The notes below the pieces were generated by a model, which saw nothing but the letters and a program-made list of their open reading frames with translations, ran no database searches and had not been told where the DNA came from. A DNA stretch of 64,000 nucleotides, taken from Symbiodinium sp. CCMP2592. Taxonomy: Eukaryota > Sar > Dinophyceae > Suessiales > Symbiodiniaceae. Of the stretch, positions 10,360 to 58,703 are shown piece by piece (the stretch's first letter is position 1; every line of letters begins with the position of its first letter). The translations under genes were made by a program, and so were the position numbers. Location: assembly GCA_905221615.1 (NCBI GenBank), contig CAJNDT010000598.1:1-64000 (forward strand). Reading direction: 5' to 3'.

Positions 10360-11415
10360 GCCTCAGTGACTGCCTTCATCCGTTGTGCATTCGGAATTTG
10401 GCGGCTGGGGGTTAAAATGTTTGCCTTGGTCTGGAGTTTTTATTTTGACGATTTTCTATCGGCTTGCAAGCCTGAGGAGCGTCGACATGTGGAGGTCGTC
10501 ATCAGCACGCTTTTCAGGATTCTAGGTTGGGATCTTTCGCTAGATAAACTTCTGCCCTATGACGTGTGCTGCAAAGTCCTTGGAATCAAGATCGACGTGG
10601 CGGAAGCTCGCCTGGGACTCTTCAAGTTGGCGAACACCGAAAAACGTGTGCTGGAGTTAACCGCTGCCTTGGACGAGGTCTTGTTAGCTGACAGGTTGTC
10701 GCATTCCGACTGTGAGAGACTTCGAGGTAGGCTGCAGTTTGCTTCCGGCCAGTTGTTCGGTCGAAGGGCGAAGGTTGCTCTGCACCAGCTTAGCCGGCAT
10801 CATGGAGGTCGGTTGAGCGAGGCCACTTCTGAGGCGTGTCGCTTCTTGAGGCGTTTGGTTTCGTCAAACCAGAGCCGCTTGATTAGTCGACAACTTGGAA
10901 ATGTCGTGCATGTGTATGTGGATGCATCCTTCAGCGATGAGGGCAAGCTTTGTGGCATCGGGGGCATGGCTTATGACCATAAAGGCTCCTTGCTCCAATG
11001 GTTCGGTGAAAACCTTGATGCTTCGCTTGTTTCCCAAGTCATGACGTCCTTTGAGCGTGTCAAAGAGACCGTCATCTTTGAGCTGGAGGCTTTGGCGGTA
11101 TATGTTGCGCTGAAGTGTTTCTTCAAAGCTCTTAAGCGCAAGAATGTGGTTGTGTTCACCGACAACGAAGGTGTTCACGGCGCCTTCGTGAAGTGCTGGA
11201 CTGTGAGTCAGTTTGCAACGCATGTCATCGATGCGGTATGTGAGATTGAAGAAAGCCTTGGCTTTATGATTTGGTACGATCGAGTTCCATCTGCAAGTAA
11301 TCCTTCGGATCCGCTTTCAAGAGGAGTGTGGAATCTGCCGACACCCGTGCGTGTTAGGCCTGCGGCGAAGTTCTTTGAGAACCTTCTTGAAAAGTCGAAG
11401 TCACGACTGAAGTGA
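10360..11415 (+). pseudogene. 5'-truncated reverse transcriptase-RNase H fragment
   Basis: The frame is open from just after a TAA at 10357 to the stop at 11415 (about 350 codons), with no ATG at its left edge. It opens inside the RT palm (text like SVTAFIR), shows the RT catalytic box YFDD at 10441-10452, then LGIKID, and a connection segment. It ends with an RNase H domain whose acidic residues are recognisable: VDAS (10918), the Glu of FELEAL (11080), TDNE (11159) and NPSDPLSR (11299). The RT-RH order without an intervening integrase resembles DIRS/Ngaro or Ty3-like pol. I recall related sequences as frequent in Symbiodinium-type genomes. RT fingers and other pol domains are missing, so this is a remnant, although the remaining frame is intact. 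Confidence 0.8.
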
Positions 11416-18762: not shown

Positions 18763-19190
18763 GGAGCCACCAACGAGCACCTTCGCATCCTCTTAGACGA
18801 CGAGGTCGATAGCCAACTCCTGCACTGCGCCGCGCAGCGCCTTGCACAAGCCGATGTGCCCGCTGCGGCCCTGGCTGCACTCCGCGTCGGAAGAATCGTC
18901 GCTCTGCAGAAGCCGGATGGACGCGGCATCCGCGCCCTTGTGATAGGCGACGTCCTGCGGCGACTTGTAGGGCGGGTGCTCGCGCAAGCCTTCGCGCTGC
19001 GACTCGAGACGGCGTGCCTGCCGTACCAATACGGGCTCAGCACTCGTGCTGGCGCTGAGGCTTCGCCACGCGTCCTGAGGGCTGCAACTGAAGTCGACCC
19101 CCGTGCAACAATTCTGTCCGTCGACGCGGTTGGCGCCTATGATCACGTATCCCGGCAGGCAATGCTTGCAGCCCTGCATGCCCGCCCCCG
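18763..19190 (+). pseudogene. RT fingers/palm part 1 of the LINE
   Basis: This continues the previous frame after the TGA: GATNEHLRILLDDE, then LQKPDGRGIRALVIGDVLRR (RT blocks 1-2), then ILSVDAVGAYDHVSR. The last is RT motif A with its catalytic Asp at about 19121. Near 19,190 the sequence leaves this frame, which runs on to a meaningless stop at 19299. Confidence 0.8.
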
Positions 19191-21140
19191 TATGCTCGGC
19201 AGTTCTACGGTGACGCCAGCACCTACACATGGACTGATGGGCAAGGGGCTTCCCACAGCATCGTGCAAGCTGAGGGCGGAGAACAAGGAGATCCGCTGAT
19301 GCCCGCCCTGTTCTCGCTTGCGCAGCACCCCGCGCTTGAAGAGGTACAGGGGCAGCTGCGAGACGGGGAGGCCATCTTTGCGTATCTCGACGACACATAC
19401 ATCGTCGCCACCCCCGAGCGCATCCACGAGCTGTACTTAGCATACCAGCGCGCGTTGTGGGCCCACGCGCGCATCGCGCTCAACAGTCGCAAAACGCGCG
19501 TTTGGAACGCGGCGGGCGAGGAGCCACCGGGCATTGCAGCGCTGCAGGGCGACGCTGACAATGCCGTGTGGGTCGGAGATTGGACGCTCCCGCCTACCCA
19601 TCCGGGGCTCACTGTTCTCGGCACGCCTTTTGGCAGCGACGCCTACGTCCAGCAGCGCTTGGCCTTGAAACGAGAAGAGCACGACCGCCTCCTGCAGCGC
19701 ATCCCGTCTGTTCAAGACTTACAGGCAGCCTGGCTACTATTGCACTACTGTGCAGTTCCATGGGCAAATTACCTTCTGCGTTCCCTGCCCCCAGCCGCGA
19801 CAGCAGCCTATGCTTCCTCACATGACGCAGCCGTGAGCAGCTGCCTATCAGCGCTCTTGGGCCTTGCGGACGAACCGCTGCCCCCCCAACCAGCACGAGC
19901 AGCACGGCTCGCGCTGCGGTTTGGCGGACTCGGTCTGCGCGCAGCTGACGACGACCGTCACGCAGCCTACTGGGCTTCCTGGATGGACACCCTGCCGGTC
20001 ATCCACGCCCGAGTCCCCTCAGCTGCGGAGCGCCTGCTCGCAGCCTTGCGCGACAACAGAGCTGCGCGGCTGCCTTCGCTCTTGGCTGCAGCCCAGGCAG
20101 CGGCTTACTTGACCACCCAGGGCTACGCAGTGCCGTCATGGGACGAGGCCATTTCCACTGTGCCAAGCCCGCAGTCCCGACACGACGAGCCTGCAGACCT
20201 CCTGCGCGGATGGCAGCGCAGAGCTTCCCACGCTTGCGATGAGCGCGCGCTCGAAACTCATTTTGCTGATTTGTCCCCTGCGTCCCGGGCGCTGCTGCTC
20301 TCTCAAGCTGGTCCTCACGCGGCCCGAGCCTTCACGGTATTGCCCACGTCGGATGATGTTGCAATACCCGACTCACACTTCCGCGTCCTGCTCTTACGCC
20401 GTGTGCGCCTGCCCCTCCCGTTCGGCCCGCGCAGCTGCTCCTGCCACGGCGTGCTTGATGCGTACGGAGACCATCGAGCTGCATGCTCCACATCAGGCGT
20501 GCTCGCCTCCCGCGCACTGCCCCTCGAACGGGCCATCGCCCGCGTCTGCCCAGAAGCCGGGGCGTGTGTCGGGCGCAACGTCGCGCTGGCCGCCATGAAC
20601 ATCGATGTGCCGGTCCATGACGCGAGGCGCATCGAGGTCGTCTGCAACGGCCTCCCGCTTTGGCACGGCGCACAACTTGCCGTTGACACGACGCTCGTCA
20701 GCCCAGTGACCCGAGATGGCCGCCCGCATGACGGCGCTGAACGCCACCCGGGTTGGGCCGTCCGCGGTGCTGCGCGGCGCAAACGCAGGCAGACGTACCC
20801 CGAGATCGACCGCAGCCGACGCTGTCGCCTCGTCGTTTTCGGACTCGAGGTGGGTGGACGTTGGGCTGAGGAAGCTGCCACCTTTGTTCGCCTCCTCGCC
20901 CGGGCGCGGGCCGCAGGTGCCCCCGCCGCGTTGCGCAGCACCGCCCAAGCCGCCTGGGTTCTCCGCTGGAGTGGACTCATCTCCGCTGCGGCGCAACGTG
21001 CGCTCGCTGCCACTTTCCTTGAGCTACCCCTTCAGTCGGAGCTTGGTGCTGCTGGCCCGCCACCAGCTTTGCACGAGCTTCTCGCAGACGCCCGTTGGCA
21101 GGAGGCTCCTGAGCCAAGCCGCCTCCCTGCCCGTGCGTGA
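19191..21140 (+). pseudogene. RT part 2, zinc knuckle and restriction-like endonuclease
   Basis: The open frame reads FYGDASTYTWTDGQGASHS, then EGGEQGDPLMPALF (RT motif B, about 19280) and FAYLDDTYIVAT (motif C, YLDD at 19383-19394). It then gives a long thumb/linker with a repeated Ala/Leu pattern. Near 20436-20486 lies CSCHG...DAYGDHRAAC, a CxC-H-C knuckle. From 20628, RRIEVV, LAVDTTLVSP, KRRQTYPE and VFGLEVGGRW have the acidic and lysine positions of a PD-(D/E)xK nuclease. This segment of about 650 residues has no stop. Polyadenine follows 80 bp after the stop codon. Confidence 0.8.
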
Positions 21141-26934: not shown

Positions 26935-29900
26935 GCAATAGGATCCATGAAGACGGCAAAAGTTGAAATGTTTGTTCAGGCTGTGCTGTTTGGCCGCGGC
27001 CAGGGCACAGAATGCAAAACCGTTTGATTTGCCAGATTTTTGTGTTGTTGCGCACGTGCAAGCATGAGCACCGAAAGAGCCTTGTGCTGCATGGCAGATA
27101 GCCATGGCACTTGCATAGGAAGCAGTGCGATTAGTGATTAGAATGTGATTCGTATCCGGAGCATAATCAAGATGTGCGGCCGGCACATGTAGAATCAAGC
27201 GATTCAAACTTTTGTGTTGTCATGCAAGACGCTGTCGTGTGTGGCGATGGAAATCAAAGATCAAAGAAGTGTCTTATAGTTGATTGTGTTCGAAGAAGCA
27301 ACGTTCGGTATTCTGTTCGAAAAACTATTTGATAGGATCCATGAAGACGGCAAAAATTGAAATGTTTGTTCAGGTTGTGCTGTTTGGCCGCGGCCAGGGC
27401 ACAGAATGCAAAACCGTTTGATTTGCCAGATTTTTGTGTTGTTGCGCACGTGCAAGCATGAGCACCGAAAGAGCCTTGTGCTGCAGGGCAGATAGCCAGG
27501 GCACGTGCATAGCAAGCAGTGCGATTAGTGATTAGAATGTGATTGGTATCCGGAGCATAATCAAGATGTGCGGCCGGCACATGTAGAATCAAGCGATTCA
27601 AACTCTTGTGTTGTCATGCAAGACGCTGTCGTGTGTGGCGATGGAAATCAAAGATCAAAGAAGCGCCTTTGATGGTGTTCGAAAAAGCAAAGTTCGGTAA
27701 GCACAAATATATTTGATAGGATCCATGAAGACGGCAAAAATTGAAATGTTTGTTCAGGTTGTGCTGTTTGGCCGCGGCCAGGGCACAGAATGCAAAACCG
27801 TTTGATTTGCCAGATTTTTGTGTTGTTGCGCACGTGCAAGCATGAGCACCGAAAGAGCCTTGTGCTGCATGGCAGATAGCCAGGGCACGTGCATAGCAAG
27901 CAGTGCGATTAGTGATTAGAATGTGATTCGTATCCGGAGCATAATCAAGATGTGCGGCCGGCACATGTAGAATCAAGCGATTCAAACTTTTGTGTTGTCA
28001 CGCAAGACGCTGTCGTGTGTGGCGACGGAAATCAAAGATCAAAGAAGTGTAGTTGATTGTGTTCGAAGAAGCAACGTTCGGTATTCTGTTCGAAAAAATA
28101 TTTGATAGGATCCATGAAGACGGCAAAAATTGAAATGTTTGTTCAGGTTGTGCTGTTTGGCCGCGGCCAGGGCACAGAATGCAAAATCGTTTGATTTGCC
28201 CGATTTTTGTGTTGTTGCGCACGCGCAAGCATGAGCACCGAAAGAGCCTTGTGCTGCATGGCAGATAGCCAGGGCACGTGCATAGCAAGCAGTGCGATTA
28301 GTGATTAGAATGTGATTCGTATCCGGAGCATAATCAAGATGTACGGCCGGCACATGTAGAATCAAGCGATTCAAACTTTTGTGTTGTCACGCAAGACGCT
28401 GTCGTGTGTGGCGATGGAAATCAAAGATCAAAGAAGTGTAGTTGATTGTGTTCGAAGAAGCAACGTTCGGTATTCTGTTCGAAAAAATATTTTTTGATAT
28501 GAAACCTTCCATGAAACGCAAAATTGAAATGTTTGTTCGGTTTGTGCTGTTTGGCCGCGGCCAGGCCAGATGCCAAAACCGTTTTGATTCTCCAGATTTT
28601 TTGTGTTGTGGCGCACGTGCAAAGAATGAGCACCGAAAGAGCCTTGTTCTGCATGCATGATAGCCAGGTCAACGTCATAGCAACATGCTATTATCTGATT
28701 AGAATGATCGTAATCCGGAGCATAATCAAGATGTGCGGCCGGCACATGTAGAATCAAGCGATTCAAACTTTTGTGTTGTCACGCAAGACGCTGTCGTGTG
28801 TGGCGACGGAAATCAAAGATCAAAGAAGTGTAGTTGATTGTGTTCGAAGAAGCAACGTTCGGTATTCTGTTCGAAAAAATATTTGATAGGATCCATGAAG
28901 ACGGCAAAAATTGAAATGTTTGTTCAGGTTGTGCTGTTTGGCCGCGGCCAGGGCACAGAATGCAAAATCGTTTGATTTGCCCGATTTTTGTGTTGTTGCG
29001 CACGCGCAAGCATGAGCACCGAAAGAGCCTTGTGCTGCATGGCAGATAGCCAGGGCACGTGCATAGCAAGCAGTGCGATTAGTGATTAGAATGTGATTCG
29101 TATCCGGAGCATAATCAAGATGTACGGCCGGCACATGTAGAATCAAGCGATTCAAACTTTTGTGTTGTCATGCAAGACGCTGTCGTGTGTGGCGATGGAA
29201 ATCAAAGATCAAAGAAGTGTCTTATAGTTGATTGTGTTCGAAGAAGCAACGTTCGGTATTCTGTTCGAAAAAATATTTGATAGGATCCATGAAGACGGCA
29301 AAAGTTGAAATGTTTGTTCAGGTTGTGCTGTTTGGCCGCGGCCAGGGCACAGAATGCAAAACCGTTTGATTTGCCAGATTTTTTTGCTGTTGCGCACGTG
29401 CAAGCATGAGCACCGAAAGAGCTTTGTGCTGCATGGCAGATAGCCAGGGCACTTGCATAGCAAGCAGTGCGATTAGTGATTAGAATGTGATTCGTATCCG
29501 GAGCATAATCAAGATGTGCGGCCGGCACATGTAGAATCAAGCGATTCAAACTTTTGTGTTGTCATGCAAGACGCTGTCGTGTGTGGTCAATGTAAGAATC
29601 AAGAGATCAAAGAAGTGTAGTTGATTGTGTTCGAAGAAGCAACGTTTGGTATTCTGTTCGAAAAAATGAATGATAGGATCCATGAAGACGGCAAAAATTG
29701 AAATGTTTGTTCAGGTTGTGCTGTTTGGCCGCGGCCAGGGCACGAATGCAAAACCGTGTGATTTGCCAGATTTTTGTGTTGTTGCGCACGTGCAAGCATG
29801 AGCACCGAAAGAGCTTTGTGCTGCATGGCAGATAGCCAGGGCACGTGCATAGCAAGCAGTGCGATTAGTGATTAGAATGTGATTCGTATCCGGAGCATCA

Positions 29901-31053
29901 TCAAGATGTACGGCCGGCACATGTAGAATCAAGCGATTCAAACTTTTGTGTTGTCATGCAAGACGCTGTCGTGTGTGGCGATGGAAATCAAAGATCAAAG
30001 AAGTGTCTTATAGTTGATTGTGTTCGAAGAAGCAACGTTCGGTATTCTGTTCGAAGAAATATTTGATAGGATCCATGAAGACGGCAAAAGTTGAAATGTT
30101 TGTTCAGGTTGTGCTGTTTGGCCGCGGCCAGGGCACAGAATGCAAAACCGTTTGATTTGCCAGATTTTTGTGTTGTTGCGCACGTGCAAGCATGAGCACC
30201 GAAAGAGCTTTGTGCTGCATGGCAGATAGCCAGGGCACGTGCATAGCAAGCAGTGCGATTAGTGATTAGAATGTGATTCGTATCCGGAGCATAATCAAGA
30301 TGTGCGGCCGGCACATGTAGAATCAAGCGATTCAAACTTTTGTGTTGTCATGCAAGACGCTGTCGTGTGTGGCGACGGAAATCAAAGATCAAAGAAGTGT
30401 AGTTGATTGTGTTCGAAGAAGCAACGTTTGGTATTCTGTTCGAAAAAATGATTGATAGGATCCATGAAGACGGCAAAAATTGAAATGTTTGTTCAGGTTG
30501 TGCTGTTTGGCCGCGGCCAGGGCACAGAATGCAAAACCGTTTGATTTGCCAGATTTTTGTGTTGTTGCGCACGTGCAAGCATGAGCACCGAAAGAGCTTT
30601 GTGCTGCATGGCAGATAGCCAGGGCAGTGCGATTAGTGATTAGAATGTGATTCGTATCCGGAGCATTATCAAGATGTACGGCCGGCACATGTAGAATCAA
30701 GCGATTCAAACTTTTGTGTTGTCATGCAAGACGCTGTCGTGTGTGGCGATGGAAATCAAAGATCAAAGAAGTGTCTTATAGTTGATTGTGTTCGAAGAAG
30801 CAACGTTCGGTATTCTGTTCGAAAAAAATATTTGATAGGATCCATGAAGACGGCAAAAATTGAAATGTTTGTTCAGGTTGTGCTGTTTGGCCGCGGCCAG
30901 GGCACAGAATGCAAAACCGTTTGATTTGCCAGATTTTTGTGTTGTTGCGCACGCGCAAGCATGAGCACCGAAAGAGCCTTGTGCTGCATGGCAGATAGCC
31001 AGGGCACGTGCGTAGCAAGCAGTGCGATTAGTGATTAGAATGTGATTCGTATC
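26935..31053. repeat. About 390-bp satellite, 11 units
   Basis: Units begin 'gataggatccatgaagacgg', near 26941, 27335, 27719, 28108, 28505 (diverged), 28889, 29283, 29676, 30069, 30458 and 30838; spacing is 380-397 bp. Each holds 'ctgtttggccgcggccaggg', 'gcatgagcaccgaaagagcc' and 'cggccggcacatgtagaatc'. Unit 5 is much more diverged than the rest, and the last is cut off at about 31053. A minus-strand frame of up to 115 codons (MNRLILHVPAAHLDYAPDTN...) is open in most units but its 3' end varies. Because units are nearly identical, this openness is inherited, not independent evidence of coding. Confidence 0.95.
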
Positions 31054-31182
31054 CCGAGGCCATTCAAAGGCGAGAACTCAGCATATTCAGCAGATGCCTG
31101 TTTTGTTTTACGGTTTTTTTTGGGGGGGGAGGTGATTTGTTCCCCACATCACCTTGTGGGGTTCTTACTTTTAAGGCTGCAT

Positions 31183-37085: not shown

Positions 37086-37670
37086 TCCATTGCGGTCGGG
37101 AAGGGTGTCTGCCGCACCGCTCGCACCGCCCGCACCGCCCGCGAAAGACCCCGTACCACGACCATACGAAGACTTGATTTGCACCATCTGTCTCTCCATT
37201 GGTCCATCGAGGATCGAAGAAACATGATTACCAGCATCGGCAACTCCTGCTGGTGCCTTGCTCGTTCATTTGAAAATCAAAGGGCATCCGCCAGTTGCAG
37301 CCTTGCTGTCACTGGCTTTGGTGCCTGACTTGGCTGCTAGCTTACAGGTTCGAGTCATCGGAGGCTTGAGGCATTCGAGGCTGTCACATGCGTTCCATGA
37401 TTCTCCATCTTAGCTTGCCGCAGCTGCGTCAGGTGTTGACTGCTACTTTGGGCGTTTTGATGCTTGCAACTCTTCTTACGGCTGCGCTGGCGCTTGGGAG
37501 TTTTGTGGTCCCAAGTGCTGCTCTCCGAAAAGGTTGTGCTCAGATGTACCATGCAATTCCATACCACCAAGTCGCTGCACTGTCCTCGTTGTCGCCTTAC
37601 AGCGCTGTGCTTGAGAGTGTATCGCCGAGTGAAATAGGATTCTCGTGATTGTGACTGTGTGACATAAGGT
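37086..37670. other. Low-copy spacer between two satellites
   Basis: A Pro/Ala stretch (APLAPPAPPAKDPV, 37110-37160) and a short plus ORF (37388-37648) with a hydrophobic middle (LATLLTAALALGSFVV) are visible. Neither has a recognisable domain or context. Confidence 0.25.
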
Positions 37671-38835
37671 GATGCATGAAGGCATCAGCGACGAAAGCGT
37701 GCAGTGCTGCATGGCACATCGCCAGAGCACGTGCAACAAAACACATGTGGAAATATTGGGTGATGCATGAAGGCGTCAGCAACAGAAGTGTGCTGCAGCG
37801 CTGATAGCGCGTCGCCAGGGCACGTGCAACAGAACAAATGTGCAAGCATTGAGTGATGCATGAAGGCATCAGCGACGAAAGCGTGCAGTGCTGCATGGCA
37901 CATCGCCAGAGCACGTGCAACAAAACACATGTGGAAATATTGGGTGATGCATGAAGGCGTCAGCAACAGAAGTGTGCTGCAGCGCTGATAGCGCGTCGCC
38001 AGGGCACGTGCAACAGAACAAATGTGCAAGCATTGAGTGATGCATGAAGGCATCAGCGACGAAAGCGTGCAGTGCTGCATGGCACATCGCCAGAGCACGT
38101 GCAACAAAACACATGTGGAAATATTGGGTGATGCATGAAGGCGTCAGCAACAGAAGTGTGCTGCAGCGCTGATAGCGCGTCGCCAGGGCACGTGCAACAG
38201 AACAAATGTGCAAGCATTGAGTGATGCATGAAGGCATCAGCGACGAAAGCGTGCAGTGCTGCATGGCACATCGCCAGAGCACGTGCAACAAAACACATGT
38301 GGAAATATTGGGTGATGCATGAAGGCGTCAGCAACAGAAGTGTGCTGCAGCGCTGATAGCGCGTCGCCAGGGCACGTGCAACAGAACAAATGTGCAAGCA
38401 TTGAGTGATGCATGAAGGCATCAGCGACGAAAGCGTGCAGTGCTGCATGGCACATCGCCAGAGCACGTGCAACAAAACACATGTGGAAATATTGGGTGAT
38501 GCATGAAGGCGTCAGCAACAGAAGTGTGCTGCAGCGCTGATAGCGCGTCGCCAGGGCACGTGCAACAGAACAAATGTGCAAGCATTGAGTGATGCATGAA
38601 GGCATCAGCGACGAAAGCGTGCAGTGCTGCATGGCACATCGCCAGAGCACGTGCAACAAAGCACATGTGGAAATATTGGGTGATGCATGAAGGCGTCAGC
38701 AACAGAAGTGTGCAGTGCTGATGGCACGTCGCCAGGGCACGTGCAACAAAACACATGTGCAAACATTGAATGATGCATGAAGGCGTCAGCGACAGAAGTG
38801 TGCAGCGCTGCATGGCACATCGCCAGGGCACGGCG
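37671..38835. repeat. 184-bp dimeric higher-order satellite
   Basis: The repeat 'gatgcatgaaggcatcagcg' recurs at 37671, 37855, 38039, 38223, 38407 and 38591, exactly 184 bp apart. Each 184-bp unit is two related monomers of about 91 and 93 bp (the second begins 'gatgcatgaaggcgtcagca'). Successive 184-bp units look identical over most of the array (the 140-codon minus frame is the same four times), while monomers within a unit differ clearly. The last 130 bp (38700-38835) are diverged edge monomers. This matches the structure of homogenised higher-order satellites. Confidence 0.95.
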
Positions 38836-51063: not shown

Positions 51064-53275
51064 TAGAGCTTGATCTTAGAGTTGCGCGCCAGTAGCTCAG
51101 TACCATGGAGATGCTCTTACCGGTGCTGCGCTGCTGTTTTATTGCTTGGTCAAGGTGCACGAGAAGGACTCGCCGTGTCGTATGTATTCCGGACTCTACC
51201 TTGACGGGCATGGTGCCATGACCCTCATTTTTATCTAGTTTCAGAACCCGAAGTTGATGCAAGGCTTGTTGGGGGCTCGCGTCTACCCTCCTGTTGTTGC
51301 CGGGCTTGCCGCGAACATGGCGCAGGCTCAAAGGGCGGCAAGTGGGATGTTCTCTGGTTGGAGACTTGTCTTGCTAAGGATGCAGGCTGTCAGCGTGGGT
51401 TTCTTGAAAGTTCTCGACTGCCAGGGTCTCCGGCGATGCACTCCGGCAGCGGGGCTGAGGAAAGTTTCGGAATGCAACATTCGTGCATGGGCGCGACCAC
51501 ATCCATGTCATTACCCCTCATCCTGATATGACAGCATGTGCCTTTCCGAGTTGAGTGTTCTGCTTCAACTTTACCATTCGTGCCAGCTTCGACGCCGTTG
51601 GTATGTGTAGACATGTCACACATCTGCCTGTCCATGTGCAGTCTGGAGTGAATGCTGCTGGAACTTGATGTTTTGGTTTGGACTCGTTGCCTCAAACATG
51701 TGACTCCGGTCTCTGAATACTTTACTGCTTTCGAGTCTTCAAACCAGCTCATTTGGATCTCAGTTCTTTGGTTTTGATGCTTCTTGATATTATTGCGCTT
51801 CGGGCAGGCTGCCAGTCCAGTGCGGCGATGAAACGGTGCAGTGCATAGTAGCGCAATACAGTATGTGGTAGCCAAAGCACATGCGCATGGTAGATTACCT
51901 GGGCACATACAGTACAGAAGCGCAGTGCTGAAAGGCTGTGTGCGAGAGAGAGACTCGCCGCTCGCGCGATCGCCCGTTGGAGGATGATCATGAAGAAGAT
52001 CTCACAGTGGCGGTGAACAAGATCACATCTTTCCTGGCTACGGCGGCTACGGTGTCAACAGCAGACGTCGAGCTGTTGGAGGGAGAGAAGGCCCAGAAGA
52101 AAAGGCACACATCATAAGGCATCCGGAAGCCGTCGTTCGAGTCCTGACCTGTTCGGTTCGGTGCACAGAACTTGCTGTTGTAGTAAAAAATCTGCTGCGT
52201 GAGTGAGCGAAAGAAAGCGATGAATAATGAATTCTTAGGTAGTGGCTAGCGGTTCTGCTGTCGTGCTGCTCGGAGCCATAGTAAGAGTTGCGTAGGTAAA
52301 CTCTCGGAAGACGTTTTTTGTAGAAGTGTCGCTGAGCTTAGCGTTAAGTGTTTGCCCCTCAGGTGTGCCAACGTCCTCGTCGACTTCACTGACTACTTGT
52401 GCCTGGCTCCCATTGTGATTGCAAGCGACAGGCGTTGGCGGTTTTGGTAGACGTGCTGTTGGTAGGAGTGCTGTGCGGGTGAGGGTGCTGCAAGGACCAG
52501 GAGTGGAGGTGCTGCTAGGCGTAGGCGTAGGCTACCCTCCTCGCTCCCGGCAGCGCCGTGGCCCCCTCGCTTTGGTCAGGTGCTATTTCGTCTTCGACAT
52601 GTCCGGAAAGCCAAGTGGGAAGCTCTGAGTGATTGCAAGGGAGTGCGCAAGTAGGATCGTGGTTTCAGTTTTTACATTCGCAATGAAGCAGTTGTTGTAG
52701 GGTGTGGTCATGTCTTATGCACGGGCCTTGGAGCGAATGCATCTGCAAGGAGGAACTTAGGTAGGTGTGGTGTTTGCAGGTGGGAAGTGGTAGGTGGTAG
52801 GGAACGCAGTCGTGATTGCGTTTGTTAGCCTGGCACGAAAAAATTGCTCCACTTTCTCCCCAAGCCCCAAGCCTAGGCGTCCCTTTGCCCATTCCCAGGT
52901 ACATATCGTGACAGCGGGACACGCAGGGAGCTCATAGTGACAGCAAGGGCTTGGATTTTGGTAGGATCTGAGTGCGCAGTTGCAGTAGGCGCTGGTGGAG
53001 TAAATCAGGTCATCCGGTCACTACCCAACTCTTGTGTAAATAGTATCAATAATTGTACAAAAAGTATCAATTACTTGGTAAAGGGTATCAACCAGGTTAA
53101 CTGACACGATGCATGGGGAGTTTGGTAGTGACCAGTAGCGACCTTTCTAGCGTAGCTGCAAGTTCAAGCTGTCTATTCGGGTCAATAGACAAAAATCTGC
53201 AACCTGAAGTTGCTCGAGGCATTTCCCAATTCAAGCTCACTCCTGTTTCGATAGCCTCTAGCTAGCTATCTGGCC
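51064..53275. other. Low-copy region with one small exon-like frame
   Basis: Plus frame 51974-52117 ends in EDDHEEDLTVAVNKITSFL and ADVELLEGEKAQKKRHTS before a TAA. The acidic, amphipathic text is protein-like but under 50 codons. Otherwise I see nothing except short 'gtatcaa' repeats near 53,040-53,090. Confidence 0.25.
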
Positions 53276-53917
53276 ATGTCAACTCAGCTTAAGAATACAC
53301 GCTGGGACTTGCGGAAGCAGATCGGAACTGGCAAAAGCTTGAAAGGCTGCGCGCTGTCAGAAGATCACCTTGAGAAGCTTTGATTCCGAGAGCAACAACT
53401 TGTGGAGCAGCAGTCCGATCATGCTGAACAACTGTCGCACACGACGAATGAGCCTGACAGGGTGATCGAGAAAGGAGCCCAAAAAACAGCAGCAGTTGGA
53501 GAAGAAGAACGCATCCGCAGAGCTGCGCAAAAGGAAGAGGGATGAAGAGGCCGAGGAGCGTCGCAAGAAGAAGGAGATCATGGTGGAGAACACGGCTAAG
53601 GTAAAAGCAGCTTGCTGAGGCCAAAGCTCTTTTGGCATCGGAGGCCGAAAAGAAAGCTCATCCATCTAGCAAGAAGCTTGCTAGGCAGGAGACCGCCTGA
53701 GGCCAGTCATGTCGAGCAGGCCGTCGAGGAGCCGCGCGAGGAGCCTCGCGAGGAGCGATCCATTGATAAGGTCATAACGAGGGTGGTGAGGTGCCATCCG
53801 AGGAGCCGCCCGAGGAGTCCACTACAATGGATGATCTCATCACTGAGCCTAAGGCGGAGGTTTCCGGCAATAGCAGCGTACTTGGCAATCTCTTTGTTCT
53901 CCGTCGGAAGGGGTGAG
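53276..53917 (+). pseudogene. Decayed Lys/Glu-rich coiled-coil gene
   Basis: It starts at ATG 53276 (MSTQLKNTRWDLRKQIGTGK). An in-frame TGA lies at about 53381, and the frame then continues with FREQQLVEQQSDHAEQLSH. Successive frame changes carry the protein-like text onward: EKKNASAELRKRKRDEEAEE with KKKEIMVENTAKVKAA (about 53,490-53,610), AEAKALLASEAEKKAHPSSK (53,612-53,700), VEEPREEPREERSIDKV (53,725-53,780) and EVPSEEPPEESTTMDDLITE (53,789-53,917). Each piece ends where the next begins, so one helical, charged protein with several frameshifts is likely. It lies 0.9 kb upstream of the polymerase relic on the same strand. Function is unknown. Confidence 0.5.
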
Positions 53918-54812
53918 CGGTGTTGATGCCGTGCCATGAGCATAACGATGTTTTGCCGAGTGCAGAATGCGACATGCAGAGCATCCCCGAAGCATAGAGA
54001 TCCGCTCGGCTTCTACAGGAGAGTTGATGCGGTTTAGGGCTGATCTGGTCATTGTTTGCAAGGAAAAAAGCTGTCCGAGCGAGAATGCACTTGTAGGTCA
54101 TTCAGTTACTCCTGAAGTCTTCGTCCGCAAAACAAATGCGTTGCCCAGGTTTCTGCTTCGCCATCTTCGCTGCTGGGAGCTCTAAGTGAAACCAAGCGCT
54201 TACTTTCACTTGCTGTAGGAGCGTCTTGCATTAGGAGCGGCTTGCGTTGGAAGCGGATTGCGTAGAAGTTGCTTGCTTGTGAGATTTTGTAAGGTTTTAA
54301 ATCCATCGTCAAGCTCAAGCTCAGCTCTGTTTCCCCCCCGCCGCTCTCCGCCGCTCGGATTCTTCGCTGACTTCGCTTTAGGGGGCTCTGAGTGCTTTGC
54401 ATCTGTGTGGAGGTCTGTGCTAGGGTCCAACTCTCAATTGCTCAAGTCCGCTGGAAAACAGATTTTGGCCTAGAGTTGGGGAGTCGAGACAAACATCCCC
54501 ATGAGGCACCTCTGCGCTCAGGTGTTCAACCGCGATCTGCGTCCACTTCGACACTGCGGGCACTCAGATTGCAAGGAATGCTGGCAGGTAGTGACTGTGA
54601 GTGAAGTGATCATAAGTGATCTGAAGTGTTGTGAGAATTGACCCCGGAGACGTTTGAGCATATTTGAAGTCATGGCTTTCAAGACGATCGTCAAGAAGTG
54701 GTGTGTGCTCATTTGAGGCGGGCTTTGCACGTCACATGCTTGGTGTAATGTGCTGCGCACTTGATGAAAAGATTCCTGTAAGCGTTTACAACACATTGTT
54801 AGATTCTCCGCC

Positions 54813-56690
54813 ATGGCTGAAAACGGCATCATTGTCAGAGAGGTTGGCCTGCGCAGAGATGAGAGCTACTTTCTGCGTTAGCTTGTCATGGAGATTACTC
54901 CTGGGCACGCCCTCCAAGTAGCTGGCTTGCGGCTTCTGTCAGAGCGGTTGCGGGAGCACCTTCAGATACAACTCGGTTTCTATGCGAAGCTGAAGTTCGA
55001 TATGCAAATCATTGTGCCCATCCATGTCTGCGGTGATGAGCCTGTGCCCGCAGAGACCCACTACTTGCTGAAACCTGCTCCTTGGGTTGTCGAAGCAGGT
55101 CTGGGAGCTAAAGCTATAATGGATGGCATTCTTCATGTCACCCGAGAGACGTACTTGGCCTTGGGTCAGGCTATTATGGCTGCCCCTTCCTCCGCCCGGG
55201 GTTGCAGACGATAAAGATGTTGGAGCTCATCCCCATCCACTTCTTGAAAGCAAAAAATGTTTGTGGAATCCACAGAGCACAGATCGGTCGTGTCTCAGCT
55301 GGTGTCTGAGAGCTCGCTTGCTAGGACTGTCGCCGCGTATGAGTGCTCAGGAGCGCAAGACCCTGACCAGGTTCACAGATGAGCGGTTCTACAAGCCTGA
55401 GTTTGCGCCTTGCAGCGTCCGGCAGCGCAACTCCAAGAGGCACCTAGCATCTCGCGAGCAGCAACATTTTGGCTAATAACTTCAGCAGTCTTCCTGACCC
55501 AGCATCCAGAGGGGTGACTTCTGATGGCATCACCAACTTCGAGCAGTCCAACGATGGCCAAAGTGCTGTTTATGTCTGGGCATGGAAATCGACTGTCTGA
55601 GGCCCTCGCGTTCCTAGGAAGTCTTTGCCGCTCTTGTAACAACCTCATTGTCCAGCCAAGATGCGTCCGAGTGATGTCCCACAATGGTGGCAATTACGAT
55701 TACAAGTTCTTGCTGAAGGCCATTGCGTACCTACGGGGACACTCAGAGTCTGAGTCTGACATGCAAGCTGACGAGCCTCCTCCATCCAGTGCTGCCATTG
55801 ATGAGGAATCAGATCAAGAGCCAGACTCCGTTGATAGTTGCGCGGATGGTGACGATGGCGAGCTTCCCCTTGCAGACTCTGCTGCATTCATGGACAGCAT
55901 TGTCTTCAAGAAGCTTAGTCTCAGCATGGTCCTCAAAACCCCTCCAGAAGGTATTGCAAGTCAGATTTGGAAACTTAGTCTTCGTAGATTCTTTCAACTT
56001 CTACCACTCCAGCCTCGCCAAGTTGATGGATGAGCTTGCGAAAACAGTTGTAGATGGAGACTGTTCCTCGATGTTCAGGCACCCGGCTGTGACCCATCCT
56101 GAACTACGACCAGAGGCTTTGACTGCTGAGAGGCGTGAGTGGATGAGGCATCATTTTGCGCCAGGATCTACAACTTGTTCGGAGAAGGAGTGGGCACGCC
56201 GACGCCAATGTGCCGTCGCTTGGAGCAGAGAATTGGGACCGCACGCTGCCCGTGAGTTGGGTGCTGGCTGTTTTCCAGCATGTACCCATATATGGGTCAC
56301 CCTTCCAGAAGGGCCGCTGGCTCGTCTAGAGCACCAGGCTTTGAAGGACGTCGACTATAAGGAGATCAACGAGAGTCACAGCTACCTTATCGTGCTGGAT
56401 TACAGTTACCCACTGCGGCAACATGGACTGGCCTCCTGCGTGCAAGATGAGCATGAAGTACAACATGTTTCCGACCACGCTCGTAATCGTAAGGTCATGC
56501 GCGAGAACCAGGTCCAGCCTTTTTCGGCCGAGAAACTCGTGCCATTTCTTGGAGCTCATCAAAATGAATGTGTCCCTTTCCTGAGCACATGGATGAACTG
56601 CTGAAGCTCACCCTCAATGGCGTTCATGGGATGTCCATGCAAAACGTGCAGGAGTTCAGCAATTCCAGCCTTTACGTTGACGTCATCATG
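54813..56690 (+). pseudogene. Decayed protein-primed family-B DNA polymerase
   Basis: A candidate start ATG at 54813 (MAENGIIVREVGLRR) is followed by an in-frame TAG at 54879. The same frame continues through GFYAKLKFDMQ and THYLLKPAPWVVEAG (54,960-55,105). In shifting frames the landmarks then come in family order: KKCLWNPQSTDRSCLSWCLR (55,250-55,315), matching the 'N-x-D-x2-C-F-x-W' box; an ExoI-like NFEQSND...VYVWAW (55,540-55,600); CRSCNN (55,632) and HNGGNYDYKFLLKAI, the ExoII box (55,680-55,724); an acidic Ser/Asp insert; FVDSFNFYHSSLAKL (55,987-56,031); SYLIVLDYSYP (56,380-56,412); EKLVPFL (56,530); and LKLTLNGVHGMSMQN (56,601-56,645), a motif-B-like box with Lys, Asn and Gly kept and Tyr replaced by His. 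Motif C (DTDS) is not found. This is the DNA_pol_B_2 type used by Polintons, adenovirus-like viruses and linear plasmids. At least five frame breaks mark it as a relic. Confidence 0.72.
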
Positions 56691-56785
56691 GTGATAGTGA
56701 TGACGGCGCTTCCTCCGGGCTCATAGAACGATTGCCAGGGTGAGCATGATGATGCTGATGTTTCTGCTGGTGTTGATGATTTTTT

Positions 56786-56802
56786 GCTGTTGCTGTTGCT
56801 GC

Positions 56803-56833
<31 letters not shown>

Positions 56834-56842
56834 GGTGGTGCG
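56786..56842 (+). repeat. GCT/GTT/GGT triplet microsatellite
   Basis: 'tgctgttgctgttgctgctg' passes into (GTT)n and then (GGT)n. It sits 100 bp past the last recognisable polymerase motif, where the palm motif C would be expected, so repeat expansion or a deletion may have removed the gene end. Confidence 0.9.
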
Positions 56843-58703
56843 GAGTGTGATGTTATCTGAGATGACAGGATGATGCTGACAACGATGCTGTTTCAGTTGT
56901 TTTGCTTTGTTTCTGTGGATCACACTGGTCAACCGCCTGCTTTGTCGACGCATGGTGGTGAATGTGCACTGCATGTATGCTTCTCGAACAGATGATGATG
57001 TCTACGATGATGACGGTGATGGTACGACGATGATGACGACGCTTTCCCGCTCTCCCCAGGGCATCCTGCGCAGTTAGCGATGACGAAAATCACAGTGCGG
57101 ATAGTGTGATGTTGGCTCTTTCGTTGGTGCTGGTACGATGATGCTGCTTCTGGGAAGATTGAAGCATCCAAACTGGAAGCCTTTGCTGGACAGATGATGG
57201 ATGCTGAATGCTGCTGAATGCATGCCTGCCAGGCTTCAAGTTTGCCATCTCCAAACATCCGGGGATAATTCGTTAGCCTGCAGGGTAGAAGTCAGAAGGG
57301 TCACAGGTCGAAGATGTACGTGAGGGTACACATAAGCACCTGCCTGCATTTTACAAGCAGTAGCTAATCAGGATCCAACATCGAAAAGGAAGAAAAGCCT
57401 CGTTGGTCATGACCATCATGATGATCTGGCAATCTGCGCTTGAGTGGAGTTCTCATTGCAGCAGAGATGGGCTCGCAGCATGAACGACTCGAGTTCGAGA
57501 GAGAGAGACATGGCGCCTGGATCGGCACTGGAACTCGAATTCGGTGAATATGCTGCACGGAAAGCGTCGGACAACACGGGTAAGGGGTTTTGAGCTTTGA
57601 TTCTGTGCGTAGTGGTACTTAGCTGACATCTGAGTTTGGAACGCGATCTGCAGCACTCCTTGAGCGCTTTCACACCAGGTGCGCAAGCTGTAAGCTGTAA
57701 GGTGTCCTCACCCTCAGTCACTAGCAACCAACTGGAATCTAGCGTGATGGTAGCGGTCAGTCATGTTTGTTAGCTTCTGCGTTGCTGTCAGATGGGAGCT
57801 TGCTGAGGGTTCAGTGTCAATTGCGAACCGCACGGGCTGTGCCGGCAAACCTAGATGGAGCCACTGGGCGTCAAGACCAAATCAAGAACCTCGAAACAGG
57901 AAGTATCCATCATCCCCTTCGGGGCAGGGGAGTAAGGTGTTGTTGCCATACCGTACTCTTACCGGCCAGCCGTAATCAATGCGGGGATCCTTTGTTAGTG
58001 CTTTGATTCGGGTGTGCCACTGTGAGGTAGGCAGTACGAAGCAAGGACCTCCGGCCGCAGGGAACTTGTGAGTGGGGCTTCAGTTCTTAGGGGTTAAGTT
58101 GAGCTGTGATTCAGTCAACAGCCGGAAGGTCAATTGCATGCATGTCATGTGCGAGCCTTGCACGTGGGTTCTGTGTGCCTTCAGGGCTGCTGCCATGACA
58201 GCAGAAGGCTGGAGTGACTAGATCCTCGGCATGGATTCAGAGTTGGGCACCGGAAATTTGAGAAGCGGCTGGGGTGGTTACTAGGGGTTGAGCTGGTTAC
58301 CTTGGGTTGAGTCCTGCTGTAATGGGGTGGAGTGAGCGTTTGTGAGCTGCTCAGTGGTGCCCGGCTCAGCAATGCAGCAGTGGCAGTGGCAGTGTATGCG
58401 AGGTAGAGGAGTAGAATGCGGGTCGGTTTGAGCTGTTTGGTCCTTCCATGCCCTTCCATACATGCAGCATTGCCGGTACTGCTGTCTGCTTGCGTGCTGG
58501 TTTTGGCAAGTTTCACAGCCAGATGTGGGAAGATGCAGGCAATCGGCCAAGTATGATCTAAACTAGGGGCTTTTGACTACCTTGTGTGGTGAATGCTTGT
58601 TGGTAGTACCTGCTGGTACCGACCTCAGTGACAGACTCGAGCGGCACGGGGCTCGGCGTTGTGCGCTGGCTGGCCCGTAAGGGTCAGCCTAGCCCGAAGA
58701 AGA

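Follow-up and report, generated by a model that had tools for sequence, protein, structure and literature searches.

The polymerase relic and its surroundings

The window, the whole 64,000-nt stretch of DNA analysed here, is included in contig C598 (176,876 bases). Its + strand carries the relic of a protein-primed family-B DNA polymerase (pPolB) gene and, upstream of it, the remains of a coiled-coil gene. The features are as follows, with the polymerase stretches given in residues of the relative P0006 (1408 aa).

53258..53422, + strand: coiled-coil gene relic with one in-frame stop (tblastn with L017:6564-7271, E 4.9e-8, 44% identity)
54736..56681, + strand: pPolB relic with frame changes, stops and large deletions (tblastn with P0006, profile hits)
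54795..55148, + strand: N-terminal domain, P0006 19-136, one in-frame stop, 59% identity
55198..55473, + strand: part of a vOTU-like domain with the putative cysteine box, P0006 177-270
55478..55609, + strand: continuation in another frame with VYVWAW, P0006 272-315, one in-frame stop, 59% identity
55611..55940, + strand: CxxCN, ExoII (HNGGNYD, 55,680-55,700) and an acidic linker, P0006 566-661, 48% identity
55936..56199, + strand: FVDSFNFYHSSL region, P0006 660-747, 67% identity
56189..56272, + strand: stretch just ahead of motif A, P0006 894-921, 50% identity
56272..56601, + strand: palm stretch with DYSYPL and KLVPFL, P0006 935-1052, 47% identity
56595..56681, + strand: motif B (LNGVHGMSMQN), P0006 1093-1121, 72% identity

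In tblastn, P0006 aligns in eight main stretches at 47-72% identity over 54,795-56,681, and it also matches briefly at its N terminus (54,736-54,783). A total of 616 of its 1408 residues are matched; two stops interrupt the matched parts in frame, and the frame itself changes repeatedly. The initial annotation had placed the polymerase at 54,813-56,690; a polymerase does lie there, but the relic is longer, spanning about 54,736-56,681, with the upstream gene remains in addition. The residues of P0006 that have no counterpart are part of 137-176, ahead of the vOTU-like stretch; about 316-565, a deletion of some 250 residues that removed the vOTU histidine region and the true ExoI; 748-893, about 146 residues with ExoIII and most of the stretch that scores best against PF03175; 1053-1092, about 40 residues following the palm stretch; and everything after 1121, motif C included, for which tblastn finds nothing in the window. 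The reading frame also breaks at motif A, after 56189..56272. Simple repeats follow motif B, and tandem repeats at 56,785-57,041 come after the relic.

The motif names placed on P0006 follow general usage for the family, and the key residues of the motifs, motif C excepted, are among the listed invariant columns of nine relatives. So numbered, the kept stretches contain the cysteine box (209-215), ExoII (589-595) and motif B (1096-1104), the lost stretches contained the vOTU histidine region (344-350), ExoI (435-441), ExoIII (819-823) and motif C (1198-1202), and motif A (921-928) coincides with a frame break. The eight landmarks on which the polymerase was originally recognized were located as strings on the + strand, in the order claimed and spread over all three frames. 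The identifications of HNGGNYD as ExoII and of LNGVHGMSMQN as motif B hold, as both fall in kept stretches. VYVWAW is not ExoI, because it aligns within P0006 272-315, ahead of the real ExoI, and the "palm YP box" (DYSYPL) is not motif A, because it aligns to P0006 979-988. The N-x-D-x2-C box is present and aligns to P0006 209-215, and we reread it as the cysteine box of a vOTU-like domain. The N-terminal domain is probably terminal-protein-like, judging by the predicted fold of the relative P0007. Of the catalytic set, comprising ExoI-III and motifs A, B, and C, ExoII and motif B alone remain, and the locus is therefore a relic rather than a polymerase gene. With ExoI, ExoIII, and motif C lacking counterparts, motif A broken, and the frame changing repeatedly, it cannot encode a working polymerase.

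The dinoflagellate nuclear setting that had been proposed is borne out by 429 exact copies in the genome of the sequence that we take to be the dinoflagellate spliced leader, with 0 for the reversed control. Elsewhere the window carries a 665-aa open frame (19143-21137, +) with an RVT_1 match (E 3.2e-7), which sits inside a GC-rich block (16-24 kb, about 61-66% GC). A 351-aa open frame (10360-11412, +) has 27% identity to part of a 1071-aa ORF of L026 (E 3e-30) and a weak RT_RNaseH match below the cut-off (E 0.0043), and is probably a retroelement remnant. In a tandem array at 26938-31058, a 394-base unit is repeated 10.6 times with 93% matches, and further long arrays occur, e.g., at 442-1870 and 37669-38832. 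An Rfam search of the window yielded nothing useful.

Detection by a profile of related polymerases

Homology to intact polymerases was established within the same genome and beyond. The relic piece 55,518-56,030 matches a 1412-aa open frame on contig C2902 of the same genome (E 7e-13, 33% identity). This frame in turn matches the window at 54,810-55,148, 55,237-55,594, 55,611-55,967, 55,936-56,163, and 56,275-56,574 (E 2e-16 to 8e-10). A protein search with the second part of the C2902 polymerase frame provided 14 homologues, all 14 of which match the polymerase relic by tblastn at E <= 0.01, with no match at that threshold elsewhere in the window or in the next 19.8 kb (83.8 kb in total). 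The nine longest of these homologues (family-B polymerases of 1176-1442 aa) were combined into a profile, which was compared with the 2023 six-frame stop-to-stop ORFs of at least 20 aa in the window. Six of the 2023 score 22-156 bits at E <= 2e-6 (1.2e-46, 4.5e-27, 4.9e-25, 5e-19, 7e-9, and 2e-6), all within 54,882-56,723. A seventh (54,768-54,878) has E 0.0026 and two more have 0.14 and 0.39, so that the nine best ORFs all lie inside 54,768-56,723; the first ORF elsewhere in the window has E 3.9. With the same profile, the top ORF from 20 dinucleotide-shuffled versions of the window reached 8.6 bits (E 0.03). The ExoII pattern occurs once in the window against a mean of 0.00 in 100 shuffles. 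The segment is the relic of a pPolB gene, and the original observation is confirmed.

Searches with single pieces behaved differently. The initial annotation had tied its reading to a match with PF03175, and none of eight relic pieces hit any Pfam family at E <= 10, probably because most of the best PF03175 stretch (P0006 residues 779-940) is missing from the window. Six pieces compared with PHROGs gave nothing significant (only E 0.28 and 0.52), nor did one piece compared with PDB sequences. Two pieces and the family alignment A1 against IMG/VR, and one piece against phage records (E 6), returned nothing useful. A profile from A1 drew 35 rows from the PDB sequences, nearly all of them zinc fingers and none a polymerase.

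Relatives in the same genome and the origin of the relic

Relatives of the relic score against PF03175 above the cut-off, and several full-length polymerases of the family occur in the same genome. Two of them have both an rve integrase and an A32-type packaging ATPase (FtsK/A32) gene nearby: C2902 (integrase L018:2864-3643:-, E 4.1e-8; ATPase L017:2-847:-, E 5.6e-6) and C209 (integrase L020:3248-4285:-, E 6.6e-13; ATPase L019:250-1077:-, E 1.1e-7). A double jelly-roll capsid gene lies near C234, and C209, C234, and C4945 are near-identical copies. The stretches of four relatives contain no terminal inverted repeats that would bound an element, whose ends may lie beyond them. By predicted fold, P0007 appears to have the domain order TP-vOTU-EXO-PALM, and a Foldseek search with its model returned no match at E <= 0.001. 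Two of four relatives scanned contain, ahead of ExoII, an endonuclease-VII-like stretch that scores above the cut-off, and none of the four has a helicase domain.

Other features were observed around these relatives. Beside the C2902 Polinton lies a 2280-aa frame (L033 999-7838, +) with endonuclease, reverse-transcriptase, and ubiquitin carboxyl-terminal hydrolase domains, which by its domain content reads as LINE-like, one portion of it resembling a deubiquitinase. Beyond the C2902 integrase, a 1416-aa frame (L018 4930-9177, +) encodes an OTU-type protease domain (E 4.9e-15). Contig C4988 (L002, L030-L032) of the same genome carries an AT-rich element (31% GC in L032) with another kind of polymerase and a distant capsid gene of its own (26-29% identity). 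The capsid-protein homologue P0087, filed under an alphaproteobacterial MAG, is probably eukaryotic contamination.

The coiled-coil remains at 53,258-53,422 correspond to the start of the ORF L017:6564-7271 of C2902, where it precedes the polymerase (ORF from 8,269) in the same orientation. From one gene start to the other there are about 1.55 kb in the window, compared with 1.7 kb in C2902. Reversed-query controls gave a best E of 0.34. The assignment comes from one query, because the C209 and C234 counterparts find no match at 53,258-53,422, and the match does not extend significantly into the low-complexity sequence that follows, to about 53,609 (E 6.4). No integrase, ATPase, or capsid gene was found near the relic at E <= 0.01 in the window or in C598:64,001-83,800, and the copy is thus a partial element. 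The Polinton-type origin suggested at the outset is nevertheless supported by the piecewise homology, by the integrase, ATPase, and capsid genes of the relatives, and by the second gene in the same order. Very probably, the segment is what decay has left of one portion of a Polinton (Maverick) that had inserted into the dinoflagellate nuclear genome.

Other explanations have to be weighed against this origin. Short motifs aligned by eye in a repeat-rich genome could mislead, and single pieces have no significant match in Pfam, PHROGs, PDB, or IMG/VR. The earlier expectation that chance would hardly yield such an order of landmarks is, however, borne out by ORF scores of 22-156 bits (E 1e-46 to 2e-6), where 20 shuffles reach no more than 8.6, and by the confinement of all 14 homologue matches to the relic within 83.8 kb. 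Given the profile scores and the shuffle control, chance is rejected, its probability being negligible. Derivation from a linear-plasmid or cellular PF03175 polymerase would fit the absence of integrase, ATPase, and capsid relics beside the polymerase, but intact relatives of the same polymerase adjoin rve integrase and A32 ATPase genes and one such relative shares the upstream coiled-coil gene, which makes this derivation very improbable.

Two further readings concern how the copy came to look as it does. Dinoflagellate transcripts are known to be reverse-transcribed back into the genome, and a Polinton mRNA returned in this way would account for seeing just two element genes in a window with reverse-transcriptase-like ORFs elsewhere. 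Against this, the second-gene remains lie upstream at about the usual distance, and a 19-base part of the spliced leader was not found in the window with up to 3 mismatches. The spliced form of this reading is rejected on the latter ground, and a reverse-transcribed origin as a whole retains a slight chance, barely above that of the plasmid or cellular origin. A living gene could appear broken through introns or assembly errors, and in the portion of Bellas et al. 2023 (PMC10120064) available to us many stop codons of endogenous viruses are described as assembly artefacts. The internal stretches missing relative to P0006 and its last 287 residues are, however, absent rather than interrupted coding sequence, because they have no counterpart, and protein searches of the same genome revealed no near-identical copy that could blur the assembly. 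The missing coding stretches lead us to reject introns and a living gene, which we regard as highly unlikely. For the Polinton, a functional scheme can be drawn by analogy with its family. In an intact element, the N-terminal terminal-protein domain of the polymerase would prime copying of the linear genome, the vOTU domain would cut the terminal protein off the polymerase, the exonuclease and palm domains would copy the DNA, the ATPase would package the genome into a double jelly-roll capsid, and the integrase would insert the replication product. The relic copy presumably decayed neutrally after insertion, and we found no sign that the host has put it to a new purpose.

Lineage, age and known elements

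P0006 is the best hit for all four relic pieces tested. The relic is sister to it in one of four piece trees (99/98 support); two trees place it together with P0006 and P0008 in a group that lacks resolution, and one in a wider group of this sort. It appears nearest to P0006, and we claim no finer branching. The best own-genome match to P0006, among 33 of 186 candidates scored, is C2902 at only 49%, and the lineage to which the relic itself belongs is therefore not seen intact here. Of 81 matched columns that do not vary among the other eight relatives, 16 are changed in the relic and 8 in P0006. In the same test with other rows, the relic differs at 11-12 of 73-79 columns versus 0-6, except for the outlier P0012, which departs at 37 of 110 conserved columns versus 18 of 110 for the relic. 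The end branch of the relic exceeds that of P0006 in all four trees, in one of them slightly (0.48 vs 0.41). These data, with the two in-frame stops in 616 residues, point to neutral substitution of a few per cent per site after the gene was inactivated, an order of magnitude only, because the rates of stop-making and amino-acid-changing substitutions used are approximate values, the counts are very small, and P0012 departs more than the relic. Of the old insertion with frame breaks described initially, the insertion and the breaks stand, while "old" applies only in a relative sense.

The relic is homologous over its matched parts to the Polinton/Maverick pPolB with TP-vOTU-EXO-PALM order (PMC11071308), an order that P0007 also appears to have, and the integrase, ATPase, and capsid genes of that gene set likewise occur near its relatives. 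It differs in being a broken copy that no longer has the catalytic core, and two of the four relatives carry the endonuclease-VII-like stretch. Compared with phi29 DNA polymerase and its terminal protein (PDB 2ex3), identity is 8%, and the relative adds terminal-protein-like and OTU-like domains fused in front. Among dinoflagellates, the same host group, the available portions of two papers describe endogenous Polintons/PLVs: 2,535 Polinton/PLV capsid genes in Polarella with a few virophage-type capsid genes in Symbiodinium (PMC10120064), and an enrichment of Mavericks at the dinoTAD boundaries of Breviolum (PMC11071213). The relic's lineage is not named in these portions. The OmPLV of Oxyrrhis, also an endogenized dinoflagellate element, has a helicase-pPolB fusion, mostly in broken copies with the gene split into several ORFs; as far as the accessible part of that report goes, it has a tyrosine recombinase, whereas the relatives of the relic have an rve integrase and, in the four scanned, no helicase domain (PMC12721341).

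Because dinoflagellate Polintons are already published, novelty is low, and the relic changes nothing known about Polintons or dinoflagellates. An old dinoflagellate Polinton copy can escape a standard Pfam search, and a profile of related polymerases recovers such a copy. The relic also adds a defunct lineage to those of a genome in which full-length relatives persist, from which the turnover of these virus-like elements could be dated. It is possible, although we hold it as the less probable case, that the relic is the last trace here of a Polinton lineage that died out in this genome and survives in another (P0006), while related elements remain. The relic would then provide a datable record of the turnover of virus-like elements within dinoflagellates.
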